The notes under the pieces: generated by a model
Told to the model about the DNA's origin: nothing
The model's input: the letters and a program-made list of their open reading frames with translations, nothing else
Databases searched by the model: none
NCBI RefSeq assembly: GCF_023703795.1
Contig: NZ_CP098518.1
Coordinates: 1,860,001 to 1,924,000 of the forward strand
Length of the DNA stretch: 64,000 nucleotides
Direction: 5' to 3'
DNA from: Haloplanus sp. HW8-1
GTDB taxonomy: Archaea > Halobacteriota > Halobacteria > Halobacteriales > Haloferacaceae
Part shown: piece by piece, positions 7,917 through 63,534 of the stretch
How positions within the stretch are numbered: position 1 is the first letter of the stretch
How the letters are laid out: the number at the start of each line of letters is the position of its first letter
Position numbers and translations under genes: made by a program

Positions 7917-8479
7917 CCGACGCCCTCCCCTTCCCGCTCGCCGGGCCGACCCTGATCGTCGGTCCCTCGAACGTCGGCAAGACGCGTCTGACCGCCCGCG
8001 CACTGACCGCGTGGCTGGACCGCGAGGGAACCGACGGCGTCGTCGTCTTCGAGTTCGCGCCCGAGGTGGAACGCGACGGGCGCGTCCTCGGCGGCCGCCT
8101 CGACCGCTTCGTCACCCCGCCGGCCGACGTCTGGCAGGGCGTCCTCGACGCCCACGCCCCCCGGGCGACCGCCGACTCGGACGCCGCGGCGGCCGACCTG
8201 GCGGCCGACAACGCCCGCCGGGCCGAACGGCTGTTCGAGGCCGCACCCGACGAGCCCCGCGCCGTCTTCGTCAACGACGCCACCATCCCCTTCCAGACGC
8301 CGGACGCCGACCCGACTCGCCTGCTCGGCTACTGTGCCGGCGCCGAGGTGGCCGTCCTGAACGCCCTCGAAGCGGACGCGCTCGTCGGCACCGATCCGGT
8401 CTCCCGTGCCGAACGCGACGCGCTCGCGGCGTTCCGTGACCGCGTCGCCCGCGTGGTTCGCCTCGACGGCGAGACGTAG
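7913..8479 (+). CDS. P-loop NTPase-like protein
   Basis: A 188-residue protein starting with GTG that overlaps the Nramp stop by 4 bases (GTGA). It has a Walker A motif GPSNVGKT near residues 16-23, and VFEFAPEV near residue 43 could be part of a Walker-type core. A hydrophobic strand ending in Asp (AVFVNDAT, near 118) is a candidate Walker B. No known family is recognised. The tight overlap suggests a function with the metal transporter, perhaps nucleotide-dependent regulation, but that is inference. Confidence 0.8.
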   Translation: MTDALPFPLAGPTLIVGPSNVGKTRLTARALTAWLDREGTDGVVVFEFAPEVERDGRVLGGRLDRFVTPPADVWQGVLDAHAPRATADSDAAAADLAADNARRAERLFEAAPDEPRAVFVNDATIPFQTPDADPTRLLGYCAGAEVAVLNALEADALVGTDPVSRAERDALAAFRDRVARVVRLDGET

Positions 8480-8517
8480 CCGGCCCCGTCCCGTTCGGCC
8501 GACTCTCCCGTCTCGAC

Positions 8518-9609
8518 TCAGCCGACCAGCGCCTCGGCGACCCGCCGGTACAGGCGTTCACACCGCTCCAGTACGTCGACGCCGACGCTCTCCGTCGCGG
8601 TGTGGGCCTCGCCCGGTTCGGCGGCGCCACAGACCACGCAGGTCGTCCCGGCGGCCGCCAGCCACCCCGCGTCGGTCGCGTGGGGTTTGACGACGCGCTC
8701 GGGGGCGCCAGTCTGCGACTCGCGGGCCGCCGCGAGGACCGCCTCGGCGAAGTCGGCGTCGTCACACGCCATCGGCGGGAGGTCCTGATCGACCGTCCAC
8801 TCGACGCCCGGGATCGACTCCACCCGCTCCAGGGCCGCCCGCTCGCCCGGCACCGTCCGTTCGTCGACGGTTACCGAACACGCCTCGGGGATCACGTTCC
8901 ACGCCGACCCGCCCTCGATTTCGGTGACCGCGACGCTTCCCGACAGGTGTCGGTCCAGGACCGTCGTCGTCGGCGCGTCGAGGTCGCGAACGACGTCGAC
9001 GGCGTCGCAGGCGCGGTAGACGGCGTTCTCCCCGGCTTCTGGCTCGCTCGCGTGGGCGCCCTCGCCGTGCGCGCGGATCGTGCTCCCGCGGCGCCCCTTG
9101 TGGGCGACGGCGACGTCGGTCACCCCGGGCGCCGAGTAGCCGGTCGATCCCTCGCCGACGACGGCGTAGTCGGGGGCGAACCCCTCGTCGATGGCGGCCC
9201 GGGCGCCGACGCCTCCCTGTTCTTCGCCGACGAAGGAGACGAACAGGAGTTCGTCGACCGGGTCGACGGGCGCGTCGGGCGCACCGAGGGTCGCGTCTCG
9301 GAACGCCACCATCGCTGCCGCCAGACTCCCCTTCATGTCGGCGGTACCGCGGCCCTGGAGGCGCCCCGCCCGTTCCTCGACGTCGTACTGCCCCTCGTCG
9401 GCCGGCGGCACCACGTCGTGGTGACCGACGAACGCGAGCGAGCGCGGTCCCGCCCCGCGTCGGGCGAAGACGTTGCCGTGTTCGTCGCGCTCGACCGTCG
9501 CCGACGTCTCCTTGCGGAGCCACGAGACGACGGCGTCGCCGGCCGCGCGTTCGTCCTCGTGGCTGGGGATCGAAACCAGGCGGCGCGTCAGGTCGCGAAC
9601 CTCACTCAT
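8518..9609 (-). CDS. M20 family peptidase/deacylase (DapE/ArgE/LysK type)
   Basis: A 363-residue cytosolic metallohydrolase. The co-catalytic site is recognisable: GHHDVV near residues 62-67, GRGTADMKG with the bridging Asp at 91, the Glu pair in VGEEQGG at 129-130, and the late His in GEAHTATE near residue 336. A dimerisation domain (about 170-280) starts at the AHKGRRG block. The family covers succinyl-diaminopimelate desuccinylases, acetylornithine deacetylases and carboxypeptidases; the substrate cannot be decided here. The nearest biosynthetic context is absent, so the broad call is kept. Confidence 0.9.
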   Translation of the reverse strand: MSEVRDLTRRLVSIPSHEDERAAGDAVVSWLRKETSATVERDEHGNVFARRGAGPRSLAFVGHHDVVPPADEGQYDVEERAGRLQGRGTADMKGSLAAAMVAFRDATLGAPDAPVDPVDELLFVSFVGEEQGGVGARAAIDEGFAPDYAVVGEGSTGYSAPGVTDVAVAHKGRRGSTIRAHGEGAHASEPEAGENAVYRACDAVDVVRDLDAPTTTVLDRHLSGSVAVTEIEGGSAWNVIPEACSVTVDERTVPGERAALERVESIPGVEWTVDQDLPPMACDDADFAEAVLAAARESQTGAPERVVKPHATDAGWLAAAGTTCVVCGAAEPGEAHTATESVGVDVLERCERLYRRVAEALVG

Positions 9610-23268: not shown

Positions 23269-23325
23269 GCGACGTGGCGGTGCCGCTCGACCACCACGCC
23301 GTCGCCGCGGGCGGCGTGTCGCGCG

Positions 23326-24336
23326 CTACGCGTCTCCCGGCTCCGGCACCGGGACCGGCTCCCCCGTGTCGATGGCTTCGAGAACGGCGTTGGCCACCTG
23401 GAGCGACCGAAGGCCGTCCCGCCAGGTGACGAGCGGCGAGTCGCCGGACCTGACACAGTCGACGAAGTGGGCCGTCTCCCGGGTGAGGTTCGTCGTCAGC
23501 GTTCCGCGGAGTTCCGAGGTGTCGACGTAGTCGTAGCCCTCGTCGGTCCCGACGGCGACGTCGTCGTTTTCGAGTTCGAGACGGGCGTAGCCGTCGGTGC
23601 CGGTGAGCCGAATCTCCTCGGTGATCGCCGCGGGGTAGCCGTCGGGGCGCGCCCACCCCGTTTCGAGCGTGCCGACCGCGCCGTTCGCGAACTGCAGTGT
23701 CGCCGTCACCACGGCGGGTGTCGACAGGTCGCCCAGCCCTCGGCTGGCGATGGCCGACACCTCCGTCACCTCGGAGTCGAGGTACCACCGCATCATGTCG
23801 ATGTCGTGGACCGACAGGTAGTAGAGCGGGTTGGTCCACTCCGCGACCGCCTCGTAACTCTCGGCCGACGCGATCCGTGCCGCCTGAATCCCGAGGAACT
23901 CCCCGAAATCGCCGTCGTCGATCCGCGATTTCAGATTCGCGTACCGTGGGTCGAACCGGCAGACGTAGCCGACCAGCAGGTCGGCCTCCGACGCCTCGAC
24001 CGCCTCGCCGATCGCCTCGGCGTCCGCGACGGTGTCCGCGATCGGTTTCTCCAGCAGGACGTCCACGTCGCGGTCGAGCACGGTTCGGGTGGGATCGAGG
24101 TGAGCCGATTCCGGCGTCGCCACGGTGACGAGGTCGAGGTCGATGGCATCGAGCGCCTCGGGGACCGACCCGAACGACGCCGCGTGGAACCGCTCCGCCA
24201 CCTCACGGGCGCGGTCCTCGTCCAGGTCGACAACGGCGGCCAGATCGACCCCCGGATGTTCGTCGTAGCTTCTGGCGTGTTGTGTTCCGATCAATCCGCT
24301 ACCGATCACGCCGGCCTGCAGTTTGTCGTTCGTCAT
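23326..24336 (-). CDS. Gfo/Idh/MocA-family oxidoreductase
   Basis: A 336-residue NAD(P)-dependent dehydrogenase of the glucose-fructose oxidoreductase type. The Rossmann fold starts at VIGSGLIGTQHARSY (8-22). The EKPIADTV block (near 97-104) contains the catalytic-pathway Lys of the EKP motif. The C-terminal sheet carries the substrate domain with SVHDIDMMRWY (near 170-180), where the His is the usual proton donor. The family acts on sugars, inositols and related compounds; the substrate is unknown. The ATG at 24336 is used because upstream residues are arginine-rich. It is divergent from the oxidoreductase at 24574. Confidence 0.92.
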   Translation of the reverse strand: MTNDKLQAGVIGSGLIGTQHARSYDEHPGVDLAAVVDLDEDRAREVAERFHAASFGSVPEALDAIDLDLVTVATPESAHLDPTRTVLDRDVDVLLEKPIADTVADAEAIGEAVEASEADLLVGYVCRFDPRYANLKSRIDDGDFGEFLGIQAARIASAESYEAVAEWTNPLYYLSVHDIDMMRWYLDSEVTEVSAIASRGLGDLSTPAVVTATLQFANGAVGTLETGWARPDGYPAAITEEIRLTGTDGYARLELENDDVAVGTDEGYDYVDTSELRGTLTTNLTRETAHFVDCVRSGDSPLVTWRDGLRSLQVANAVLEAIDTGEPVPVPEPGDA

Positions 24337-24509
24337 ATGGACGCTTGCAGGGAGTGGGTGATAAGTATATGGCCGCACTAACACGGGTCGGACTGACGCC
24401 GTTCGCACGACCCGTCGGCCGCCGCCGACCACCCGCCGTCACCGGGTCGTGGCGTCGGGGCGGCCACGGCGCGTTGCCGGCGAGCGCCGAAACGGCGCTG
24501 TCGGTGGAT

Positions 24510-24529
24510 ATTGCTCGTCTCGAAGCAAT
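24510..24529. promoter_or_regulatory. Inverted repeat upstream of the AOR-family gene
   Basis: ATTGCT (24510-24515) and AGCAAT (24524-24529) are perfect inverted arms with an eight-base spacer. They lie just upstream of an AT-rich TATA-like stretch (AAATTTTTAC, about 24538-24547) that precedes the ATG at 24574. This is the place for an operator, but no copy was found before the other genes of the block. Confidence 0.4.
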
Positions 24530-24573
24530 CTCACCGCAAATTTTTACATCTCGGGGGAGTTCTCTGGAAACAG

Positions 24574-26241
24574 ATGAATTCAGCAAACGGGTCGATGTTG
24601 TCGATCGACGTGAGTGCGAAAACGACACGTGAGGAGGGCATCGACGACGAACTTGCATCTTTCATCGGTGGGCGTGGCGTCGCGACGCGACTCGCACACG
24701 AGCGAATCCCCTTCGACGCGGATCCGTTCGGGAGCGAGAACGCGGTGTACTTCTCGACAGGGCCGCTGCAGATGTCGCAGATGAGTTTCACGGGCCGGAT
24801 GAACATGACCGGGCTCTCGCCGCTGACCGACGGGTTGCTGTCGACGAACGCCGGCGGCTATCTCTCCCGGAACTTCGTCGACACGGGGCACGCAGTCGTC
24901 GAGATCACGGGCGAAAGCGACGACCTCGTCGGCCTCCACGTCACCGACGACGGCGTGACCGTCGAAGCGGTGCCTCACCTCAGGGAAGCCACCGTTCCGG
25001 ACGTCATGTCACACGTGACCGCCGAACACGGACTCGAAAGCGAACACGTGGCCGCCATCGGGCCGGCCGGCGAAAACCGGGTCCGGTTCGCCAGCGTGAT
25101 GACCTACGATCACCGGGCATTCGGTCGTGGCGGTCTCGGCGCCGTCCTCGGGTCGAAGAACGTGAAGTTCCTCACGTTCCAGGGCGAGTCGCCACCGCAG
25201 GTGTCCCTCCCCGACGACGTCCAGTCGACGATCCACCGGGAGGCGGCCACGGCCGACGACATGATGAAGCGCCAGGGCACGACGGCGGGGACGGAGTTCA
25301 TCAACGACGACTTCTCGTTGCCGACGAGATACTTCTCCGAACAGTCCTTCGAGGACGTCGAGGATATCGGTGGCGACGCCGTCGAGGCAAAGAAGACCAA
25401 CAAGGCGGCCTGTTCGGTCTGTGCGTTCGCGTGCAAACTCCCGACGAAGGACGAGGAGACGGGGTTGGAAACCGAGGGTCCGGAGTTCGAGACGATCTTC
25501 TCGTTCGGGAGCAACGCCGGCGTCGGCGACCTCGTGTCGATCATGCGTTCGAACGAGCGCTGTGACACTCTCGGGATGGACACGATCAGCGCCGGCAACG
25601 TCGTCTCGGCGTATCTCGCGGCCAACGACGAGTTCGGGAATACGGACCTCGTCGACGAACTGGTGCGAAAGATCGCCTACCGCGAGGGGATCGGCGATAC
25701 GCTCGCCGAAGGAGTCGATCGGTGCCACGAGGCGTTGGGTGTGGAAAACTGGTCGATCAAGGGACTGGAACTGGCCGCCCACGACGGCCGCGTTCTCTAC
25801 GGACAGGCGCTCAGCTACGCCACGGCGAACCGCGGTGGTGACCACATGTACTCGGCGACGATGCTCTCGAACGAGTACGGCGGGGACCTGGACGCCGAGA
25901 CGCTCGACGGGAAACCCGAGTTCCTGATCACCGACGAGAACCGCGCCGCCGTTCGCGACAGTGCCGTCCTCTGTGATTTCGGCGGCGGCTACGTGAGCGA
26001 GGACGCCCACGGCCAACTGCTCGATGCGTCGTACGACGAGTTACTGGCGGTCGGTGGCCGCATCGTCGAACTCGAACGGCATTTCAATAACAAGCGGGGG
26101 ATGGACCGGGCCGACGACCGGCTCCCGTACGAGATTCCCGGGTTCGAGGACGCACTCGACGAGTATTACGACCGACGGGGATGGACCCGGGACGGGACCG
26201 TCCCCGACGAACGGGTCGCCGAGTACGCCGTCGTCGGCTGA
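24574..26241 (+). CDS. Aldehyde:ferredoxin oxidoreductase-family tungstoenzyme
   Basis: A 555-residue member of the AOR family, which oxidises aldehydes to acids with ferredoxin as acceptor, using a tungstopterin and a 4Fe-4S cluster. The cluster ligands are visible: CSVCAFAC with Cys at 280, 283 and 287, and a fourth Cys at 467 in VLCDFGG. Pterin-binding blocks include the STGPLQMSQ segment, the SPLTDGLLSTNAGGYLSRNF segment (near 85-104) and AFGRGGLGAVLGSKNVK (near 184-200). Length is slightly short of classical AOR (about 605). It leads an island with an M14 hydrolase and a glutamine-synthetase-like ligase. The natural aldehyde is unknown. Confidence 0.9.
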   Translation: MNSANGSMLSIDVSAKTTREEGIDDELASFIGGRGVATRLAHERIPFDADPFGSENAVYFSTGPLQMSQMSFTGRMNMTGLSPLTDGLLSTNAGGYLSRNFVDTGHAVVEITGESDDLVGLHVTDDGVTVEAVPHLREATVPDVMSHVTAEHGLESEHVAAIGPAGENRVRFASVMTYDHRAFGRGGLGAVLGSKNVKFLTFQGESPPQVSLPDDVQSTIHREAATADDMMKRQGTTAGTEFINDDFSLPTRYFSEQSFEDVEDIGGDAVEAKKTNKAACSVCAFACKLPTKDEETGLETEGPEFETIFSFGSNAGVGDLVSIMRSNERCDTLGMDTISAGNVVSAYLAANDEFGNTDLVDELVRKIAYREGIGDTLAEGVDRCHEALGVENWSIKGLELAAHDGRVLYGQALSYATANRGGDHMYSATMLSNEYGGDLDAETLDGKPEFLITDENRAAVRDSAVLCDFGGGYVSEDAHGQLLDASYDELLAVGGRIVELERHFNNKRGMDRADDRLPYEIPGFEDALDEYYDRRGWTRDGTVPDERVAEYAVVG

Positions 26242-26471
26242 GCAGCGCACGGATCCCGCGTCGCGGACGGCGGCGCCGCAGTACTCCTCGTCTGTCGACC
26301 ACACGCCACCGTCGGCGGGCCGTCCGTCGCGTTCGGTCCCACTCCGTCGGGGCGGGACCGCCCCGAATCCGGAAACTACTGCCGGATGTGTGGCTAGACC
26401 GTGCAACTCTCCTCCAAAACGCTGGACGAAGTCCCAGAAGAGCTTTGTAAAACCAGTCGATCGATGGCTGT

Positions 26472-27242
26472 ATGCGAATCGAACAGCTCGGTTCCGGTGA
26501 GCCGGCCGTCGCGGTCGTCGCGGCGGTTCACGGCGACGAACCCTGTGGGGTACGCGCCATCGAGCGACTCTTGGACGACGATCCGGACGTCGAACGGCCG
26601 GTGAAGTTCGTCGTCGCGAACGAGCGGGCGCTCGATCGGGGCGTTCGGTACGTCGACGTCGACATGAACCGCTCGTACCCCGGCGACGAGACCAGCGACC
26701 GACACGAAGAGCGCCTCGCGAGTGATCTCCGGGCGGAACTGGCCGGCACGACGGCGCTTTCGATTCACTCCACACGGTCGTACGCGGACCCGTTCGGTGC
26801 GACAGCCGGGCTCACCGACGCGGACCGGCGGGTGTTCGAGCGATTGGGGCTGGAGTACGCCGTCGACGTCGGCGGCGTTTCCGACCGGCACCTGGCACAG
26901 CTACCGAACTACGTCGAGATAGAAGCCGGACTCCAGGGCACGGACGCCGCGGCGAGGAACGCCTACGACCTGACGAGACGCTTTCTGCGGGCGACCGGCG
27001 TGGTACCGGGTACCCCCGAGCGACGGGACACGTCCTACGTGACGATCTACGAAACCGTCCCGAAGCGGGCCGACGCGACCTACTCGATCACCGCACGGAA
27101 CTTTCGGGCGGTCGAACCGGACGAGGAGTTCGCACGGCGTGACGGCACACCGATCCGTGCGACGGAGGCGTTCGTGCCCGTACTCATGTCGAGCACCGGC
27201 TACGAGGACATCCTCGGGTTCAAATCGGCCGTCGTCGACTGA
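26472..27242 (+). CDS. AstE/AspA-type M14 zinc amidohydrolase
   Basis: A 256-residue protein of the succinylglutamate desuccinylase/aspartoacylase branch of M14. The zinc site is HGDE (His20, Glu23) with His99 in SIHSTRS as third ligand; DMNRSYPGD (near 64-72) is the substrate-carboxylate Arg motif. Members cleave N-acyl-amino acids such as N-succinylglutamate or N-acetylaspartate. The neighbouring ligase of glutamine-synthetase type makes a glutamyl amide as the substrate plausible. It begins about 230 bases after the AOR-family gene, in the same direction. Confidence 0.9.
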   Translation: MRIEQLGSGEPAVAVVAAVHGDEPCGVRAIERLLDDDPDVERPVKFVVANERALDRGVRYVDVDMNRSYPGDETSDRHEERLASDLRAELAGTTALSIHSTRSYADPFGATAGLTDADRRVFERLGLEYAVDVGGVSDRHLAQLPNYVEIEAGLQGTDAAARNAYDLTRRFLRATGVVPGTPERRDTSYVTIYETVPKRADATYSITARNFRAVEPDEEFARRDGTPIRATEAFVPVLMSSTGYEDILGFKSAVVD

Positions 27243-27491
27243 TCGACCGGTCGATGGTTGCTGCCTGAACGGCACTCGACGACCCCGTTCGAGGCCGCCG
27301 ATCCCGAATTCGGTGGCGCTCCGCCGGTCGACGCCCCGAGTTCCGGATCACTCGAACCTGGCCGCGCCCGATCACCCTGCCGGACGATCACTTCCAAAGG
27401 CCCACTCTAATCGGGGAAACATTCTCTGTGCCTCGTCCTTTCTCCGTTCTCGTGGTGAAGACTTATTTGGTTTGTCGGAAATGGTGGCCGT

Positions 27492-28847
27492 ATGGACGGT
27501 TCCGAAGCGGTAGACTTGGACTCGGCCGACGACGACACGATTCTCCTCGAATACGTCGATTTGAACGGCATCTCCCGAGGAATGTTTATTCCCGAGGACT
27601 CCTGGGATCGGGCCGTTGAGGACGGTGTCGGCTTCGGGTCTATCATTCTCGACTGGTACGAGAGCCACAACAGTCGCGGCATCACGGAGGCGTCGAACCT
27701 CGGCCCCAGCGAGGGGGAAATACAGGCGGTCGCCGACCCGGATTCGCTGGTCCCCGTCCCCTGGGTGGACAGCGACATCAAAAAAGCCAACTGCGACCTG
27801 CTTCACAACGGCGACCCGACCTCGATGTGTAGTCGATCGGTGCTCGGGAACGTTCTCGATCTGTACCACGACATGGACTTCACCACGTCGGTCGGAACGG
27901 AACTCGAATACAACGTCTTCACCGAACTCGACGCCGAGGAGCTGGAGCGCGGCGAAGCGTACCTGCGGGAGGTCGCCGCGACCAAGGGGAGTCCCTACGC
28001 GACACGGCCCATCGTCGATCACAGCGCGTACGTGACCGAACTCGCGACGACCATGCGAAAGATGGGTGGTTCCCTCGAAGGGATCCACAAGGAGAGCACG
28101 CTCGGGCATTACGAGGCGATACTCGAACATTCCTCCGCCCTCCAGCAGGCCGACACGATCATGTCGTTCCGCATGGCGGCACGGGGTGTGGGCCGGCAAC
28201 ACGATCACATTCCCACGTTCATGCCCCGGCCGATGAGCGAGTTCGAGGGAAACAGTCAGCACTACCACTTCAGCCTGTGGCGCGACTCCCAGAACGCCTT
28301 CAACGATCCGTCGGCCGAACGTGGCCTCTCGGACACCGGCCGTCAGTTCGTCGGCGGGATCCTGGAGCACGCCCGCGGACTCACCGCGCTCTGCTCGTCG
28401 ACGGTCAACTCGTACAAGCGGCTCCAGCCGGGGCTGTGGGCACCGATCGACATCAGCTACGGCTACGACAACAAGACCTGCCCGGTGCGTATCCCACACG
28501 GACGGGGCGACGCCACCCGGGTCGAAGTGCGGATTCCCGACAGTTACGCGAACCCGTATCTCGCGATGGCGGGCATCCTCGCGGCCGGATTCGACGGGAT
28601 CCGTCGCGAGATCGATCCGGGTGAACCGGTCACGTCGGACATCTTCGAGGAGGGTGCCGATCCGGAGAACTCGCTCCCGACGTCACTCGACGAGGCGCTG
28701 ACCGCACTCCAGGCCGACGATTTCCTCCGGGAGACGTTGGGGGAGGAGGGGATCGCGCAGTACGTCGCGCTCAAGCGAAACGAGAGCGAACGGTACCGGC
28801 AGGCCATCACCGACTGGGAAGTCCGGGAGTACGTGGACCAGATCTGA
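27492..28847 (+). CDS. Glutamine-synthetase-family ligase with altered ammonium site (gamma-glutamyl-amine synthetase candidate)
   Basis: A 451-residue ATP-dependent glutamate-amine ligase. Metal and substrate residues are kept: Glu137 and Glu139 in GTELEY, Glu201 and Glu208 in HKESTLGHYE, His257 and His259 in QHYHFSLW, Arg in NSYKRL, Glu345 and Arg347 in RVEVRIPD. The flap motif that normally reads PGYEAP here reads PGLWAP, so the Glu that deprotonates ammonium is replaced by Trp316. This and the QH replacement near 206 argue against true glutamine synthesis and for an amine substrate, as in PuuA or GlnA3/GlnA4 enzymes. A TATA-like TTATTT lies about 30 bases upstream. Confidence 0.88.
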   Translation: MDGSEAVDLDSADDDTILLEYVDLNGISRGMFIPEDSWDRAVEDGVGFGSIILDWYESHNSRGITEASNLGPSEGEIQAVADPDSLVPVPWVDSDIKKANCDLLHNGDPTSMCSRSVLGNVLDLYHDMDFTTSVGTELEYNVFTELDAEELERGEAYLREVAATKGSPYATRPIVDHSAYVTELATTMRKMGGSLEGIHKESTLGHYEAILEHSSALQQADTIMSFRMAARGVGRQHDHIPTFMPRPMSEFEGNSQHYHFSLWRDSQNAFNDPSAERGLSDTGRQFVGGILEHARGLTALCSSTVNSYKRLQPGLWAPIDISYGYDNKTCPVRIPHGRGDATRVEVRIPDSYANPYLAMAGILAAGFDGIRREIDPGEPVTSDIFEEGADPENSLPTSLDEALTALQADDFLRETLGEEGIAQYVALKRNESERYRQAITDWEVREYVDQI

Positions 28848-28903
28848 GCGACCGGACGACCGCGATCGATCGGTCGGAACAGTCGAAGAGGTGGGTGTCG
28901 GAG

Positions 28904-29707
28904 CTACTCCTCGCTGGACTCGCCGATTCCGGAGAATCTGAGGAAGAGCGACGAGCCGAACACGAGCCCGAGCGAGACGATCGCGACGATCGACGACAGC
29001 GCGAAGAGCGACGCGTTGAGTCCGAACTTCATCTGCGCGAACGTGACCGTCGGGATGGTGGACGACGAACCGATGGTAAAGAAGGTGAGGTTGTAGTCGT
29101 TGAACGCGATGATGGTCGGGATGAGGAACGCGCCGAGGAGCGCCCCCCAGATCAACGGTAGCGTGACCTCCTTGAACCGCTGGATGTCCGTCGCACCGTA
29201 GACCTTCGCGGCCCTGTCGAGTTCGACGGGATACTGGTTCAGCTGTGCCATCATGATCAGGAAGGCAAAGGCGGTGCCCCGGAGCGACTGCGTGAGCATC
29301 GCCAGCGTGACGCTGCCGGACAGCCCCGAGAGTTGGTCGTGTACCAGTGCGGACCCGATGCCGGTAATGAGCGTCGGCACGACCAGCGGCAGGACGAACA
29401 GCGTCGCGACGGCGTACCGGAACCGGAAGTCGTACCGAGTGACGCCCCACGCACTGGCCGCCCCGACGGCCATCGAGATGAAGCCGCTACCGAACCCGAT
29501 CTGGAGGCTGTTCCAGAGCGGTTCGTTGTACTGGCCGGTGAACACCTCGAGGTAGTTCTGCGTCGTGAAATGATAGGGGAACAGCGAGTACGGGTCCACG
29601 TTGAACGAGACGAGGATCAGCAGGAAGATCGGCACGTACATGAACACCAGCATTCCAACGAGGAGCGCCTTGTGGATCCGGTAGTTCCGCACCAGGGCCT
29701 GAATCAT
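28904..29707 (-). CDS. potC: PotC-type ABC permease
   Basis: A 267-residue inner membrane permease with six predicted helices. The coupling loop EAA motif reads ELDRAAKVYGATDIQRFKEV (near 162-181), which docks onto the ATPase. It pairs with PotB to import small amines, opines or related cations. It starts inside the stop of PotB (4-base overlap), so the two are translated together. It ends 57 bases from the convergent GS-like gene. The substrate is deduced only from family and context. Confidence 0.92.
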   Translation of the reverse strand: MIQALVRNYRIHKALLVGMLVFMYVPIFLLILVSFNVDPYSLFPYHFTTQNYLEVFTGQYNEPLWNSLQIGFGSGFISMAVGAASAWGVTRYDFRFRYAVATLFVLPLVVPTLITGIGSALVHDQLSGLSGSVTLAMLTQSLRGTAFAFLIMMAQLNQYPVELDRAAKVYGATDIQRFKEVTLPLIWGALLGAFLIPTIIAFNDYNLTFFTIGSSSTIPTVTFAQMKFGLNASLFALSSIVAIVSLGLVFGSSLFLRFSGIGESSEE

Positions 29708-30606
29708 TCGGACTCACCCATCGCTAGCGTTGGCAGACTCCGGAAGGTGTAGCCGACCACGGCGGTGACGAACAGAAACGAGATGACGATCAGGATCGTT
29801 CCCAGGGCCGCGCCGGTGGGCCACGCGCCCCCGGCGCCGAACAGTTCCTTGACGGAGTTGCCGATGAGGCTCCCCGAGGCACCGCCGATGAATCGACTGG
29901 GGAGGTGGCTGACGAGCGTCGACACGAACACGAGGATCGATCCCATCGCGACACCCGGCAGGCTCAGCGGCCACGTCACCTCCCTGAACGCGACGGCGGG
30001 ACTCGCCCCGGCATCGATCGCCGCATCGAGCAGCGTGTGATCGACCAGCTCCAGCGAGAGAAAGATCGAGAGCATCATAAACGGAAACCAGAGGTAAATC
30101 TCACCGAGGAACACCTGAAACAGCCCGTACTCGAGCAGGCCGAACGTCGGGATGCCGACGGCTCCCAGCAGCTGACTGGCCAACCCGTTGGCGCCGATCA
30201 GCGCCTGATGGGCCGACTCTCGGAGCATCGCGCCCACGAAAAACGGCGCCGCAAACAGGAGCAAGACGGGCAGTTGTTGCTCGTCCATCCCCCGGGAGAT
30301 GTAGTACGCGATCGGATAGCCGAGGATGAGACTGGCGGCCGTCACCGACACTGCCATCGCCACCGATCGGAACAACAGCACGTGATACGACGACGAGGTG
30401 AGGAGATAGACGTAGTTCTCCACGGTCCACACGGCGACCAGCTGGTACTGCTGGGTCGTCCAGAGACTGATGACGAACATCATCCCCAGCGCCGAGCCGA
30501 AAAACGCGAGCAGATACAGGCTCGGTAGGCCGACGAGGATGGACTTCCACGAGCCCATGCGATCCTTGACTGCCTCCAGTCGGACGGTCCGTGTTCGATT
30601 GCTCAT
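29704..30606 (-). CDS. potB: PotB-type ABC permease
   Basis: A 300-residue permease with a longer N-terminus and six helices. The EAA loop is DAAIDAGASPAVAFREVTWP (near 214-233). Overlaps of four bases with PotA before it and PotC after it show a compact operon. It is the second half of the transporter pore. The binding protein upstream is a Tat lipoprotein, so substrate is captured outside the membrane. Confidence 0.92.
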   Translation of the reverse strand: MSNRTRTVRLEAVKDRMGSWKSILVGLPSLYLLAFFGSALGMMFVISLWTTQQYQLVAVWTVENYVYLLTSSSYHVLLFRSVAMAVSVTAASLILGYPIAYYISRGMDEQQLPVLLLFAAPFFVGAMLRESAHQALIGANGLASQLLGAVGIPTFGLLEYGLFQVFLGEIYLWFPFMMLSIFLSLELVDHTLLDAAIDAGASPAVAFREVTWPLSLPGVAMGSILVFVSTLVSHLPSRFIGGASGSLIGNSVKELFGAGGAWPTGAALGTILIVISFLFVTAVVGYTFRSLPTLAMGESE

Positions 30607-31769
30607 TCTCCCTCCGGGAAGACGTGTGCATTCTCCGGGTCCCAGGTGAGTTCGACGGTATCCCCGATCGCCAGATCCGGTCCCTGCTGTCGGGTTACGC
30701 TCACGACGATGTCGTCGTCGTCGTCGAGCGTGATCCCCTCCGGATCGATCAGATATTCGATCAGCTTGCCGGTGAAGAAGACGTCACTGACCGAGCCCTC
30801 GATCGACCGCGAGGCGTCCGTCGCCGTGGTCGCGAGCTGGAGGTTCTCCGATTTGATACAGAAGACCCCCTCGTCGGCGGCTTCGAGCGACGCACCAGAG
30901 CGGCCGCGTAGCGTCACCTCCCCGCTTTTGAGCGTCGCCTGGCCGTCCTCGACCGTGTCCACGACGCCCGGGATGGTGTTCACCTCCCCGAGGAACGTGG
31001 CCACGAACTTGGACGCCGGTTCGTTGTACAGCTCCATCGGCTCCCCGACCTGAACGATCTCGGACTCGTTCATCACGGCGACCCGATCGCTCATCGTGAG
31101 CGCCACCTCCTGGTCGTGTGTCACGTAGATGAACGTGACGTCCAGCCGACGCTGGTACTTCCGCAACTCGACTTCCAGCGTGTCACGCAGGTTCCGGTCG
31201 AGGCTCGCGAGCGGTTCGTCGAGGAGCAACACGTCCGGTTCGTAGATCAGGCCCCTCGCGAGCGAGACGCGCTGTTTCTCCCCGCCGGAGAGTTTGTCGG
31301 GATACCGGTCGTAGTATCCCCCCAGATCGACGAACTCCAGCAGCTCCTGACAGCGTTCCTTCCGCTCGTCCTTCGGGACGTCCCGCATCTTGAGCGGGAA
31401 TTCGACGTTCTCGCCGACCGTCTTGTGTGGGAACAGCTGGAAGTTCTGGAAGATCAGTGCGGTCGATCGCTCGTTCGGTGGGACGTCCGTGATGTCCGTC
31501 CCGTCCAGAAGCATCCGTCCCTCGGTCGGCGTTTCGAGGCCCGCGATCATCCGCAGCAGCGTCGATTTGCCGCTGCCCGACGGCCCGACGAGGGTGAAGA
31601 ACTCGCCGTTGTTGAGCGTGAGTTCCGGCGCGTCGACGGCACATAGATCGCCGAAATACTTCTTGAGATCCTCGATCCGGAGGAGCACGTTCGAGTCGGA
31701 CTGTGTCGGGTCCCGTGTCTCGCTCTCGCGTTCCGTTGTATCGCGTTCGGTGTCTTGGTCTTGCATCAT
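30603..31769 (-). CDS. potA: PotA-type ABC ATPase
   Basis: A 388-residue ATPase driving the importer. Walker A GPSGSGKST (near 58-66), the Q-loop in IFQNFQLFPHKTV, signature LSGGEKQRVSLA (near 154-165), Walker B VLLLDEPLASLD (near 174-185) and the switch His in VTHDQEVAL are all intact. A C-terminal TOBE regulatory domain (about 260-388) is present. It starts 33 bases after the binding protein gene stop and overlaps PotB by four bases. Confidence 0.95.
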   Translation of the reverse strand: MMQDQDTERDTTERESETRDPTQSDSNVLLRIEDLKKYFGDLCAVDAPELTLNNGEFFTLVGPSGSGKSTLLRMIAGLETPTEGRMLLDGTDITDVPPNERSTALIFQNFQLFPHKTVGENVEFPLKMRDVPKDERKERCQELLEFVDLGGYYDRYPDKLSGGEKQRVSLARGLIYEPDVLLLDEPLASLDRNLRDTLEVELRKYQRRLDVTFIYVTHDQEVALTMSDRVAVMNESEIVQVGEPMELYNEPASKFVATFLGEVNTIPGVVDTVEDGQATLKSGEVTLRGRSGASLEAADEGVFCIKSENLQLATTATDASRSIEGSVSDVFFTGKLIEYLIDPEGITLDDDDDIVVSVTRQQGPDLAIGDTVELTWDPENAHVFPEGE

Positions 31770-31802
31770 ATATTACCGGAAACGTCCGACAGCTAGCTCC
31801 GC

Positions 31803-33023
31803 TCAGGCGGACTGGACCTGGGTCCAGTACTCTTGCCACGTCGACGGGCACTGCGGAACGCCGAACTGAGTGAGTTTGCTGAACTGGTCGGTGCGGTCCT
31901 GGAAGAAGATGCGTGCTTCCCGGTCGGTCAACCGGTCGCGGATGTCCGCTGCCGGGGCGCCACCGACGTTTCTCGCCATCATCTCCATGTAATTTTTCGT
32001 CAGCCGCTGGTCCATGAACGCGTAGACGGCGTTTTTCTTCGCCTCCGACTCGACGCCCGACGTCATCATCCACGCTTCGAGCCATCCCATCCCACCTTCC
32101 TCCGGTCGGAGGTTGTGTCGAATGTCGTTCCCCTGGAACGCCAGCCGGCGGAACGTGTCCGAGAACTCGGGGAACAGCCACAGCGAGCCGTTGTTGTACA
32201 GCCGGTCGAGGTTCCGGGAGTCGCTGTACCGCGTGATCAACCAGTCTTTCTGCTCGGTGAGCAGTTCGGCGATTTTCTGGAGTTGGTCCTCGGAACAGAC
32301 GTCCCAGATGTTGCCCTTCGGATCGTTGTACCCGAGCGCCATCGCCGTGTTGGCGACGTTCATCGTCATTCTGGCGCTCGTGGCGATGTGACCCGAGTAC
32401 TCCTCGTTGTACAGCGAACTCATGAAGCTATTGATGTCGTCCTCGGCGACCTCGTTCGGGTTGTACGAGATCCCGTAGCCACCCCAGGCGTTCGGCGGGC
32501 CGAGATACTCGCCGTCCTCGCTCACGTGCAGGTCCAGATTGTCGGGGTGGAACGCCGAGACGAGGTTGTCGAGGTTGCTCAGCCGCGACCGATCGACCGG
32601 CTGAATGAGCCCGTCCTGGTAATACTGCTTCGGCCACAGCGAGTCCGCCATCACGATGTCGAACTCCTCGGCGCCGCCGGAACGCAGTTGATTGTACGCC
32701 TCCGGGTTGCCGTCGAAGTACGCCGTTTGAAGCTGCACGTCGTACTCGTCGACGAAGGCCTGATTCAACTCCTCCGTGTCGTAGTACGGCCACATCAGAA
32801 TGCGGAGGGTGTCCGCGAACTCGGCACCCCCGCTCGTTCCGACCGTCGTGCCACCACCGCCGTCGCCGTCGCCACCGCTCGTCGTCCCCTCGCTCCCCGA
32901 TCCGCCGTCACCACTGGATCCGCCCCCACTACAGCCGGCCAGTCCGGAGACGACTGCAGCGGAACTTGCCGCCAACCAGTGGCGGCGGGTGATACCGTTC
33001 GTCGACGTGTCTTGCTCAGACAT
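31803..33023 (-). CDS. potD: PotD-type substrate-binding lipoprotein (Tat-exported)
   Basis: A 406-residue periplasmic-type binding protein. The N-terminus has the twin-arginine motif TRRHWLA and lipobox LAGC (Cys near 31), followed by a Gly/Ser/Thr-rich linker. The mature part starts with ILMWPYYDTEELNQAF, characteristic of the spermidine/putrescine binding family, and has a C-terminal WQEYWTQVQ end. The ATG at 33023 is chosen because a TATA box lies 27 bases upstream, implying a leaderless mRNA; a longer in-frame start at 33059 lies within the promoter. The ligand may be a polyamine, agmatine or glutamyl-amine. Confidence 0.9.
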   Translation of the reverse strand: MSEQDTSTNGITRRHWLAASSAAVVSGLAGCSGGGSSGDGGSGSEGTTSGGDGDGGGGTTVGTSGGAEFADTLRILMWPYYDTEELNQAFVDEYDVQLQTAYFDGNPEAYNQLRSGGAEEFDIVMADSLWPKQYYQDGLIQPVDRSRLSNLDNLVSAFHPDNLDLHVSEDGEYLGPPNAWGGYGISYNPNEVAEDDINSFMSSLYNEEYSGHIATSARMTMNVANTAMALGYNDPKGNIWDVCSEDQLQKIAELLTEQKDWLITRYSDSRNLDRLYNNGSLWLFPEFSDTFRRLAFQGNDIRHNLRPEEGGMGWLEAWMMTSGVESEAKKNAVYAFMDQRLTKNYMEMMARNVGGAPAADIRDRLTDREARIFFQDRTDQFSKLTQFGVPQCPSTWQEYWTQVQSA

Positions 33024-33045
33024 TACCGATTCCTTGCCGACTATC

Positions 33046-33055
33046 ATATATAAAA
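33046..33055 (-). promoter_or_regulatory. TATA box of the potDABC operon
   Basis: On the minus strand the sequence reads TTTTATATAT, the haloarchaeal box A consensus. Its centre is about 27 bases from the ATG at 33023, so transcription would begin at or next to the start codon. It is the only strong TATA in this intergenic region on this strand. Confidence 0.75.
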
Positions 33056-33112
33056 TCACCCCCGTCTATGCTAGATGGGCGAACTAGGGGTGTAGGGCGT
33101 AGACCCGAAAAA

Positions 33113-33152
33113 ATAATCATATATTTCTTATCAAACGAAAAAAAGTGATTAT
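33113..33152. repeat. AT-rich inverted repeat between potD and the D-aminopeptidase gene
   Basis: ATAATCA (33113-33119) is inverted as TGATTAT (33146-33152) with a 26-base AT-rich spacer. It sits about 60 bases upstream of the potD TATA box and about 175 bases downstream of the dppA-like gene stop, so it could be an upstream activator or silencer site for potDABC. Confidence 0.4.
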
Positions 33153-33327
33153 ATCGGGGCAGAAACGGGCACATGGTGGAATAACTGAATCACACGGCTC
33201 CCTCCGAACTATAATGGTTAACGTACCAAAATGTGGGGTCCTCACGGGGCTTCGTCGGGCGTTCGTCGCGGTCGGTGCGCGGAGCCGGTTTCTCCGTCGG
33301 GTGGGGTCGTTCTACACCCGCAGGGCG

Positions 33328-34179
33328 TCACCACGTGAACAGTTCGTTGTGTGCCGCACTCGCCGCGTTTATCATCGCCATCGCTCGGTCGTACGCCACC
33401 GGATACGACGCTCCCGTGACGCGGGTCGTCCGACCGCCGACCCGTTCGACCTCCTCGAGATCGTCGGCCCGGTAGGCGTGATTCGTCGCCGCCCACTCGA
33501 TCTCGATGTCGACCGGTTCGGCGACCTGTGATTGGTCGAAATCGTCGGTGTCGGCTCGCTCGACCGCGGCCGTCGCCGCGCTGGTGATTCGCTCTCGTGC
33601 TTCGGGCAACGGCAGGCTGTGCGCGCTGAACCGGTCGATTCCCTCCTTTACGCTGACGGTCTCGACCTCCCCGGTACCGAACTCCCCCTCGGCCTCGGCC
33701 GCGGTCTTGTCGTCACCCGTGACCAGTCCGACCGGCGTCCCGTGGTGTTTCGGGAGCCCCGCGTTGATCCCCATCTCCCCGACTTCGCGGCCGTTGATCT
33801 CGATACGACTCAACATCTGCGGGAACATCGTGTGGTTCAGCACCGCGTGTGGCGTCCCGGCCATCGCGTGATAGCCGACGAAAAAGACGATGTCGTAACT
33901 CTCGTCGAACTCCTGCATCATCAGCCGTCGCTTGCTCGACCCCCGGATCAGTCGTGCGGCGTCGTGCAACTCCGCCGGGGGAATGTTCGTCATCGTCCAG
34001 TGGGAGTCGTTCACGACGACTTCCTCGGCGCCGGCCGCGAGCGCTCCCTCGACCGCGGCGTTCACGTCGCCGGCCATCAACTCTTGGCCACGAGCGTACG
34101 CCCGTTCGTCCTCGAGGATGTCCCGTGGGTCCGCGATTCCGGTCGTTCCCTCCATATCCGCCGAAATGAAGACGCGCAT
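33328..34179 (-). CDS. dppA: M55 family D-aminopeptidase (DppA-like)
   Basis: A 283-residue metallopeptidase. The metal ligands known from Bacillus DppA appear at almost the same positions: Asp8 and Glu10 in SADMEG, His60 in NDSHW, His104 in GYHAMAG, with candidate nucleophile His116 in LNHT. Known enzymes remove D-amino acids from short peptides and form decameric rings. The gene has its own upstream region and lies behind potDABC on the same strand. Its place in the island suggests work on an imported amide or peptide, though the substrate is unknown. Confidence 0.92.
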   Translation of the reverse strand: MRVFISADMEGTTGIADPRDILEDERAYARGQELMAGDVNAAVEGALAAGAEEVVVNDSHWTMTNIPPAELHDAARLIRGSSKRRLMMQEFDESYDIVFFVGYHAMAGTPHAVLNHTMFPQMLSRIEINGREVGEMGINAGLPKHHGTPVGLVTGDDKTAAEAEGEFGTGEVETVSVKEGIDRFSAHSLPLPEARERITSAATAAVERADTDDFDQSQVAEPVDIEIEWAATNHAYRADDLEEVERVGGRTTRVTGASYPVAYDRAMAMINAASAAHNELFTW

Positions 34180-34322
34180 GGATACCGATGTGGCAGCGGT
34201 GGGGAAAAACGTTGTACAGACATAAGACGGGGGTCGCCCGGCGGCGTCGGTCACGCGGTGGCCGCGGCGGCTCCTGGCGGTCACGCTTCCTTCCCTCGAT
34301 CCGGCGCACGCCCCAGATCCCG

Positions 34323-35021
34323 TCACTCCGGGCTCAACAGTTTCGCCTCCGCCTTGCGGAGGTGTTCCAACATCGTCGTCTTCGCCAAGTCGAACTGGCT
34401 CGCCAACTCCTGAACTGTCACCTCGCGCGGCCACGAGTAGTAGCCCTGTTCGCGAGCGAAATTGAACACCTCGCGCTGTCTCGTCGAGAGGAGGTCGTCC
34501 GTCTCGGCGAGCGAATTCCCCGTCTGTTTACTGGACGAGATCCGTGTGATCCGAATCTCTGCATCCATCCTCTCTCGGATCCGGTCGAAGCGATCCTGCA
34601 AACACGTTCTGTCCGCCCGCACGACGACGTTCCACGTTTCTCGGCCGTCCTTGATCACGTTCGGCTCGTCCTGGATGAACCCCTCCTCGGCGAGAATCGG
34701 ATCGATGCTGTTGCCGGAGTCGTACTCGACGAATATCTCCTGTGTGTGGTTTCCGGACGGCAGCGGCCTGTTCATCGTCAGATCCGGATGGAGCCGCTGG
34801 ACGTGGCTGGTAAGCCGGGAGTCCCGGGCCGCGCTGATCAGGTCCTCGACGTCGTCGGCCGACTCGCCGAACACGGTAAACCGGCCCTCTGCGGCGCCGT
34901 TCGGCTGTACGTACGCACCGTGACTGACGAGGTTCCCATCGGTGTTCTCCGTAACCTCGATCGTCCAGCAATCCTCGTGCCAGAGATCGAGTTGGAGTCT
35001 CAATAACTCTTTACCGGCCAT
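34323..35021 (-). CDS. Bat-type HTH transcriptional regulator
   Basis: A 232-residue haloarchaeal regulator. The C-terminal domain (about 170-230) is the bat-type HTH: LLSTRQREVFNFAREQGYY, then VTVQELASQFDLAKTTMLEHLRKAE. The N-terminal part lacks GAF or PAS features but resembles the sensor region of other bat-like proteins, which may bind a small ligand. It is the last gene of the island, so local control of the importer and enzymes is plausible. Degenerate 21-base repeats in the promoter region may be its binding site. Confidence 0.88.
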   Translation of the reverse strand: MAGKELLRLQLDLWHEDCWTIEVTENTDGNLVSHGAYVQPNGAAEGRFTVFGESADDVEDLISAARDSRLTSHVQRLHPDLTMNRPLPSGNHTQEIFVEYDSGNSIDPILAEEGFIQDEPNVIKDGRETWNVVVRADRTCLQDRFDRIRERMDAEIRITRISSSKQTGNSLAETDDLLSTRQREVFNFAREQGYYSWPREVTVQELASQFDLAKTTMLEHLRKAEAKLLSPE

Positions 35022-35330
35022 CGAATGGTCGAACGGCGCCCAGACTAAAATAACTTGTTTTCAGACTCATATATGCTAGTTTGATTCTCATATTAGATTA
35101 ATATTTGGACACTTCTGTCGTATATATGTACGAATGGATTGGTAACTACGAAAAGGATAGACATACAAATACTGTGATGGTCCCACCGTCGGTCCGTCAC
35201 CCGATGACTGCCCCATGTCCCCGAGACATCGGGCCGTGTCGGGACCGGTGGCGGCGTGAACGATCACCGGGGTACAGCGGGCACGGCAGGTCACAAACGC
35301 TATACACCGTCCGAACGCTCGTGTGGACAC
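35022..35330. other. AT-rich promoter region of the regulator gene
   Basis: About 310 bases without a gene. The stretch next to the regulator (35040-35180) is strikingly AT-rich compared with the window, with TATA-like elements on both strands (for example GTATATATG near 35120) and a small palindrome TCGTA/TACGA (35118-35133). The part near 35330 is GC-rich and holds the promoter of the next + strand gene. Confidence 0.5.
35041..35103. repeat. Three degenerate 21-base direct repeats before the regulator gene
   Basis: Units start at 35041, 35062 and 35083. CAGACT opens units 1 and 2, and CTCATAT occurs at 35066-35072 and 35087-35093, again 21 bases apart. I count 14 of 21 identities between units 1 and 2 and 11 of 21 between units 2 and 3. 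A spacing of two helical turns places the sites on one face of the DNA, fitting a dimeric regulator. Confidence 0.45.
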
Positions 35331-35693
35331 ATGACAGACAGCGACGGTCGGATCATGGCCAGCGACGCCGAGGCCCGTCCCTACGGCGGGACGTGTCCGG
35401 CGTGTAAACGGGAGTACCGGCGAGCGATCACGTTCACCGGTGACAGCGTGATTCGTGGCGACCTCTCCGGCGACGTCTGTATCACGCCCGACTATCTGTT
35501 CGCTCACTCCGACCTCACGGTCGCCGAACCCGACGACGACTTTCCGACCAAGGAAGTCGGCGCGATGGGCAATCGCCGCGAAGTGCCCGTCGAGAAGACC
35601 GAAGTGACGGGCGTCCGGGTCTTCGAAGGCCCCGACGACCCCGACGGCGACGGGATCGTCTTCCCCGACGCGGACGACGAGTCGGCGGCGTAG
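35331..35693 (+). CDS. Hypothetical haloarchaeal protein with a CxxC motif
   Basis: A 120-residue acidic protein with CPACKREYRRA near residues 22-32. The rest is beta-rich and ends in an acidic tail; one more Cys is seen in DVCITP, so a single metal site is possible. The family is not recognised. The ATG at 35331 follows a TATA-like GCTATAC at 35299-35305, about 30 bases upstream; an in-frame ATG at 35355 is the alternative. Confidence 0.7.
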   Translation: MTDSDGRIMASDAEARPYGGTCPACKREYRRAITFTGDSVIRGDLSGDVCITPDYLFAHSDLTVAEPDDDFPTKEVGAMGNRREVPVEKTEVTGVRVFEGPDDPDGDGIVFPDADDESAA

Positions 35694-63252: not shown

Positions 63253-63534
63253 ATGCAGTGGAAGCTGTTCGCGGATCTCGCGGAGGTCGCCGGTGATCGG
63301 GAGGTTCGCGTCGACGTCGGTCCGGGGGCGACGGTCGGCGACGCCCTCGAGGAACTGTTCGAGACCAAGCCGGCGCTCCGCGACCGCGTTCTCGACGACT
63401 CCGGCGCGGTCGCCGACCACATCAACGTGCTCCGCAACGGCGAGAACGTCCACGCGGCCGACGGACTGGCGACGGCTCTTGAGGACGATGACGAACTCGC
63501 GCTGTTCCCGCCGGTGAGCGGCGGGACGCAGTAG
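63253..63534 (+). CDS. samp1: SAMP1-type ubiquitin-like small modifier with a C-terminal TQ tail
   Basis: A 93-residue MoaD/SAMP1 beta-grasp protein used in haloarchaea both as a protein modifier and as a sulfur carrier for molybdopterin. The fold begins MQWKLFADLAEVAG and ends LALFPPVSGG at 90-91, then has two additional residues Thr92-Gln93. SAMP1 of Haloferax ends exactly with Gly-Gly, which UbaA adenylates. The tail would have to be removed, or the protein is not conjugated. It lies 23 bases from the TrkA-C gene. Confidence 0.92.
   Translation: MQWKLFADLAEVAGDREVRVDVGPGATVGDALEELFETKPALRDRVLDDSGAVADHINVLRNGENVHAADGLATALEDDDELALFPPVSGGTQ

Follow-up and report, generated by a model that had tools for sequence, protein, structure and literature searches.

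We analysed a stretch of 64,000 nucleotides (hereafter, the window) from the 3.84 Mb haloarchaeal genome of Haloplanus sp. HW8-1, and within it a block of genes for an aldehyde:ferredoxin oxidoreductase (AOR), an M14 zinc hydrolase, a glutamine-synthetase-like (GS-like) ligase, a Pot-type ATP-binding cassette (ABC) importer, an M55 peptidase and a transcription regulator. The best reading of this block is a gamma-glutamylation pathway in which the AOR and the M14 hydrolase serve as replacement parts; that it is a laterally acquired pathway of this kind, acting on a primary amine, we hold to be evenly balanced. A more precise version is put forward tentatively, and is rather unlikely to be right in all its parts: a tungsten-dependent haloarchaeal gamma-glutamylation of an amino alcohol or similar compound, in which the AOR would act on the gamma-glutamyl aldehyde and the M14 enzyme would be the hydrolase, its clade substituting for PuuD beside gamma-glutamylputrescine synthetases elsewhere. 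A previous, sequence-only reading of this DNA had proposed the logic of the bacterial Puu route with exchanged aldehyde oxidiser and amide hydrolase. This logic is supported: Pot importers recur near haloarchaeal GS-like genes, as do aldehyde oxidisers and amide hydrolases. The weak parts of that reading are the polyamines and the M55 peptidase.

The GS-like ligase and its haloarchaeal relatives

The GS-like protein stays below the cut-offs of the models for type I glutamine synthetase (TIGR00653, 309 bits, cut-off 429), type III glutamate-ammonia ligase (TIGR03105, 312 bits, cut-off 470) and gamma-glutamylputrescine synthetase (NF045547, GGputSyn, 288.6 bits, cut-off 650). The organism's own true GlnA passes TIGR00653 with 564 bits, and haloarchaeal gamma-glutamylputrescine synthetases pass NF045547 (684.9 bits at locus L127, 653 at L106). 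Judged by its sequence, the window ligase lies outside the gamma-glutamylputrescine-synthetase family. Aligned to the own GlnA, with the residue numbering of Salmonella GS assigned by motif, it keeps E129, E131, E212, E220, H269, H271, R321, R344, E357 and R359, and has lost D50, S53, Y179 and E327 (now Trp), the D50/S53 region being poorly aligned. These residues predict a ligase with the ammonium site lost and the ATP, metal and glutamate residues retained. A classic glutamine synthetase was rejected on the TIGR00653 score and the replaced ammonium-site residues. The same kind of residues is lost in Haloferax mediterranei GlnA-2, a proven glutamate-putrescine ligase (PMC8394153), and the loss of ammonia activity in organic-amine ligases has been discussed (PMC11335346).

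The maximum-likelihood tree groups the window ligase with a paralog from its own genome, 48% identical to it (100/99), and this pair is sister (96/95) to the ligases of a cluster that the sequence-only reading had not named. The cluster, which encodes an Fe-type alcohol dehydrogenase (Fe-ADH), an M81 protein, an aldehyde dehydrogenase (ALDH), a GS-like ligase and a Pot importer, is present in three genomes (L077, L078, L079); on a Haladaptatus plasmid (L039) it occurs with an amino-acid permease and no Pot genes, and the window's own genome holds a decayed copy (L006, GS-like gene at 8111-9304). By analogy, it would fit an amino-alcohol glutamylation route. We met no published description of the cluster, though no search was aimed at one.

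Further GS-like genes show other partners. The 48% paralog adjoins genes for an HDAC-family protein, a class III aminotransferase, an ALDH and a PotD-like protein. A third type of haloarchaeal GS-like ligase is plasmid-borne, with amidotransferases, class III aminotransferases and Pot importers. One of these clusters, on a Natronosalvus halobius plasmid, carries an AOR (59% identical to the window AOR), a GS-like gene, an agmatinase and Pot genes within 17 kb, and a Natribaculum plasmid has Pot genes together with ALDH and an AOR that is less closely related. In many independent haloarchaeal loci, GS-like genes have a Pot importer or a Pot-type binding protein nearby. The GlnA-like neighbourhoods L080-L096, taken as a rough negative control for partner linkage, held no partner genes except unrelated ABC ATPases and one M20 match. 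Haloarchaea seem to assemble gamma-glutamylation pathways from exchangeable parts. A profile scan of genome contigs with a two-sequence GS alignment gave a single poor match. The second GS-like island of the own genome, at L005:2857-13490, has PotD-like, ALDH, class III aminotransferase and HDAC-family hydrolase genes beside its GS-like gene, and its edges carry transposase-like fragments.

The M14 hydrolase and the AOR

The designation "M14 amidohydrolase" in the sequence-only reading is right as to the M14 family; the fold is that of zinc carboxypeptidases and deacylases, not of the amidohydrolase superfamily. The motifs HGDE20, DMNR64, IHST98 and EIEAG149 are intact, and in them we take, by analogy within the family, the HxxE and the His to be zinc ligands, the Arg of the NR motif and the catalytic Glu to be in place. 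Against the AstE model TIGR03242 the protein scores 19.5 bits, far below the cut-off of 306. AstE arginine catabolism was considered and rejected. M14 relatives are found in 235 of 242 genomes at E 1e-20.

The idea that an M14 enzyme stands in for PuuD gains support from linkage in four other genomes. At L127, the discovery locus, an M14 gene lies beside the GS homologue that passes the gamma-glutamylputrescine-synthetase cut-off, and of the related-ligase loci from 27 other genomes three more (L133, L135, L138) have an M14 gene at a distance of no more than 3 kb. This makes 4 of 30 loci, where about 0.3-0.5% is expected per locus. If the discovery locus is left out, three hits in 29 loci would arise by chance with a probability of about 1e-4 to 3e-4, a value that assumes 1.35 to 2 M14 copies per genome and carries no correction for the kinship of the genomes. 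The M14 tree unites the window M14 with the four ligase-linked genes and with copies of the own genus in one clade (98/88); 29 other haloarchaeal M14 genes, the usual copies of the family, fall outside it. As N-succinylglutamate and gamma-glutamyl-amino acids are both carboxylate-flanked amides, an AstE/AspA-type site is chemically reasonable for a gamma-glutamyl-amide hydrolase. The clade is then a candidate archaeal gamma-glutamyl-amide hydrolase, and supplies a named, testable candidate for the missing hydrolase. A short literature search found no paper describing an AstE-type hydrolase in such a pathway. AlphaFold2 single-sequence models of the M14 and PotD-like proteins had a pLDDT of about 34 and were not used. 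A single gamma-glutamylputrescine synthetase gene at L127:7117-11149 has an M14 gene on either side, the two belonging to different clades and the second of them to the usual one, and a metallo-beta-lactamase-fold gene accompanies synthetase and M14 at L133:8793-9635, L135:1414-2169 and L138:8151-8924.

The AOR has the AFOR_N and AFOR_C domains and the four cluster cysteines of the AOR/WOR family intact (CxxCxxxC at 280-287 plus Cys467), and its best match in the PDB is 1aor (E 8.6e-80). Its relatives are present in 134 of 194 haloarchaeal genomes at E 1e-130, with paralogs up to 71% identical. A SAMP/MoaD-like gene lies within 1.5 kb of 14 of the 19 nearest relatives, and the annotated plasmid relatives lie in sugar-acid-type loci. 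The window AOR has no adjacent SAMP/MoaD-like gene and precedes M14 and GS. Its probable origin is the generic haloarchaeal AOR pool. If its part in the pathway is true, it would be an unusual ferredoxin-linked replacement for an NAD aldehyde dehydrogenase. The small SAMP/MoaD-like modifier gene of the window is found at 63253-63531, far from the AOR.

Divergent from the AOR, and within the same variable segment, lies a Gfo/Idh/MocA-family dehydrogenase gene that the sequence-only reading had missed. None of the 11 congeners has a match to it at E 1e-60, and its product is a candidate for the alcohol-oxidising step.

The importer, the gene layout and the genomic island

The importer belongs to the Pot-type ABC family, and the name PotABCD given before holds only as a family name, since no subunit reaches the curated PotA/B/C/D cut-offs, the PotA-like protein coming nearest (Table 1). 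The PotD-like protein was aligned with E. coli PotD (about 23% identity) at W34, Y37, D168, E171, W229, W255 and D257, which we take to be the ligand residues. W34, Y37 and W255 are kept; D257 is replaced by E, W229 by F, D168 by R and E171 by M. Two haloarchaeal PotD proteins beside arginine-deiminase-family or aminotransferase genes (L070, L071) keep the full acidic set, and the best plasmid relatives of the window protein, alphaproteobacterial at 32-34%, share its arginine. These features make a polyamine ligand doubtful; the protein may bind a monoamine or a zwitterion. Nor does the ligase, placed outside the GGputSyn family, support a polyamine substrate, and an amino alcohol is no less likely.

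The M55 protein keeps its metal motifs (DMEG, NDSH, GYHA, NHTM); it has the M55 domain and metal ligands, and scores 182 bits against the bacterial DppA equivalog, below the cut-off of 430. A DppA dipeptide-transport operon was considered and rejected. The best plasmid relative of the M55 protein adjoins M20 and pyrE, and M55 relatives do not lie near GS genes, so that a part for the D-aminopeptidase in the pathway is not supported. The M55 protein and the HTH_10 regulator are linked to the pathway by position alone, and are accessory or unrelated.

The coordinates and strands of the nine genes named before are confirmed, as are their families, by Pfam. The two arms do converge, the stop codons of GS and potC being 56 bp apart. 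The potC, potB and potA genes overlap by 4 bp, and potD and potA are 33 bp apart. The intergenic gaps between AOR, M14 and GS are 230-250 bp and, considering this spacing, the three genes are not a tight operon; the AOR has a separate 230-bp upstream region.

Table 1. Genes of the block and its left neighbour, in window coordinates; paired bit values are score and model cut-off.
Gene product	Position	Strand	Family evidence
Gfo/Idh/MocA-family NAD(P) dehydrogenase, possible additional block member	23326..24333	-	Pfam PF01408, PF02894
AOR-family enzyme, predicted tungsto-enzyme	24574..26241	+	PF02730 (AFOR_N), PF01314 (AFOR_C)
M14 AstE/AspA-like zinc hydrolase	26472..27242	+	PF24827 (AstE_AspA_cat); catalytic motifs
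GS-like gamma-glutamyl-amine ligase, putative	27492..28847	+	PF00120 (Gln-synt_C)
PotC-like, Pot-type ABC permease	28904..29707	-	PF00528 (BPD_transp_1); PotC model 86/326 bits
PotB-like, Pot-type ABC permease	29704..30606	-	BPD_transp_1 below cut-off; PotB model 126/348 bits
PotA-like, Pot-type ABC ATPase	30603..31769	-	PF00005 (ABC_tran), PF08402 (TOBE_2); potA subfamily model 327/356 bits
PotD-like solute-binding lipoprotein	31803..33023	-	SBP_bac_6
M55 (DppA-like) D-aminopeptidase	33328..34179	-	PF04951 (Peptidase_M55); DppA 1hi9 E 4e-33
HTH_10 (bacterio-opsin-activator type) transcription regulator	34323..35021	-	PF04967

The block is a recently gained, lineage-specific island. It occupies a variable site of about 12 kb (23270-35350) between a conserved GTPase gene, which ends near 23.27 kb and is 89-94% identical in all 11 congeners, and a gene near 35.35 kb. 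In 7 of the 8 congeners with flanks compared, 3-12 kb of other DNA follows before they match the window again, from about 35.3 or 36.1 kb; the eighth has no right flank within the stretch compared. The other DNA that fills the site in the congeners differs in length. The GC content is 62.8% at 24.4-35.3 kb, 68-71% on the left side and 67% directly to the right. Scattering of the genes in close relatives, named before as a sign against linkage, gave a mixed picture: GS and PotD are absent from the congeners at the thresholds used, whereas paralogs of AOR and M14 occur in many genomes, mostly at other sites.

Proposed pathway, alternatives and known systems

From these data, we infer the following gamma-glutamylation route. 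The Pot-type ABC importer would take up the amine, and the GS-like ligase, with the ammonium site lost, would couple it with ATP to the gamma-carboxyl of glutamate. A carbon end of the amine would then be converted to an aldehyde; for an amino alcohol the Gfo/Idh/MocA dehydrogenase could do this, and otherwise an enzyme from elsewhere in the genome. The AOR, passing electrons to ferredoxin, would turn the aldehyde into the acid, and the M14 enzyme, of the clade linked to ligases, would cleave the gamma-glutamyl-amino acid, with glutamate recovered. Elsewhere in haloarchaea, Fe-ADH, ALDH and M81 may be the equivalent of these last three steps. The compound handled by the block would more probably be an amino alcohol or another monoamine than a polyamine.

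Several observations weigh against this route. A search at E 1e-95 through 391 genomes of the class found the GS-like gene in one, and a search at E 1e-60 through 194 genomes found the PotD-like gene in one; the whole block, sought in these same sets, was seen in no other genome, so that a conserved order of the entire block, which the sequence-only reading had put up for survey, cannot be claimed. A regulatory motif shared upstream of the block genes was sought, and none stood above shuffled sequence. The ligase-linked M14 clade also holds genus copies that do not adjoin a GS. The AOR may act on something else, because its clade is generic and its relatives usually lie with SAMP/MoaD-like genes, often in sugar-acid-type loci. 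The step to the aldehyde has candidates only, the Gfo/Idh/MocA dehydrogenase or an enzyme encoded elsewhere.

The block could also consist of two unrelated converging modules, one of AOR, M14 and GS, the other an importer with M55 and regulator for a peptide or amino-acid-like compound. The arms share only their convergent orientation, the full block is unique, no GS-like gene lies close to the nearest Pot relatives (Shinella, Salipiger), and M55 relatives are not found near GS. Nevertheless, many independent haloarchaeal loci combine a GS-like gene with a nearby Pot importer or Pot-type binding protein, and both arms are within one lineage-specific segment of similar GC, so that we consider two modules unlikely. 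Still less probable is a true polyamine pathway, for putrescine or spermidine, with the AOR for PuuC and M14 for PuuD, considering the 289 of 650 bits of the ligase in a model that true haloarchaeal members pass, the R/M at D168/E171 and E at D257 of the PotD-like protein (alignment at about 23% identity), and a block with neither a PuuB nor an aminotransferase gene, weak FAD oxidase matches being found elsewhere only. In its favour are the Pot family of the importer, the M14 genes adjoining gamma-glutamylputrescine synthetases, the AOR beside agmatinase in the GS-like/Pot plasmid cluster, and the glutamate-putrescine ligase proven in Haloferax mediterranei (PMC8394153).

We regard as quite improbable that the AOR is a bystander, for sugar acids or aldehyde detoxification, and that another dehydrogenase serves a pathway of GS-like ligase, M14 and importer. 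AOR paralogs are indeed common, usually with SAMP/MoaD-like genes in other catabolic loci, and the window AOR has its own 230-bp upstream region; it lies, however, out of the usual SAMP neighbourhood, codirectional with and upstream of M14 and GS, and an AOR beside GS-like and Pot genes is seen a second time on the Natronosalvus plasmid.

The proposed gamma-glutamylation pathway resembles the E. coli Puu pathway in having a glutamate-amine ligase, an aldehyde oxidiser, an amide hydrolase and an importer in one region. It differs in that an AOR takes the place of PuuC, M14 that of PuuD and an ABC importer that of PuuP, and its ligase is outside the GGputSyn family. Of the set PuuA, PuuB, PuuC and PuuD, no PuuB or PuuD was found within the block; the absence of a PuuB-like amine oxidase, reported before, was confirmed. 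Peptidase_C26 matches elsewhere in the genome are partial (23-30 bits). Like the haloarchaeal GlnA-2 of Haloferax mediterranei (PMC8394153), the window GS-like protein is a GS homologue that lacks the ammonium site and keeps the glutamate/ATP core, but it belongs to a different subfamily, below the GGputSyn cut-off.

For Streptomyces coelicolor, an ethanolamine glutamylation route has been proposed, whose GlnA4 cluster (PMC6529630) also combines a GS-like ligase, an alcohol dehydrogenase, an aldehyde oxidiser, an amidohydrolase and a transporter. Compared with it, the block has a Gfo/Idh/MocA dehydrogenase for the short-chain dehydrogenase, an AOR for the ALDH, M14 for the amidotransferase/formylglutamate-amidohydrolase type, and an ABC importer. 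The haloarchaeal Fe-ADH/M81/ALDH cluster shares with the block a sister GS-like ligase, a Pot importer, an oxidiser pair and one metallo-hydrolase, although its three downstream enzymes come from other families, and the alcohol dehydrogenase, ALDH and hydrolase behind its GS-like ligase match the GlnA4 ethanolamine route (PMC6529630).

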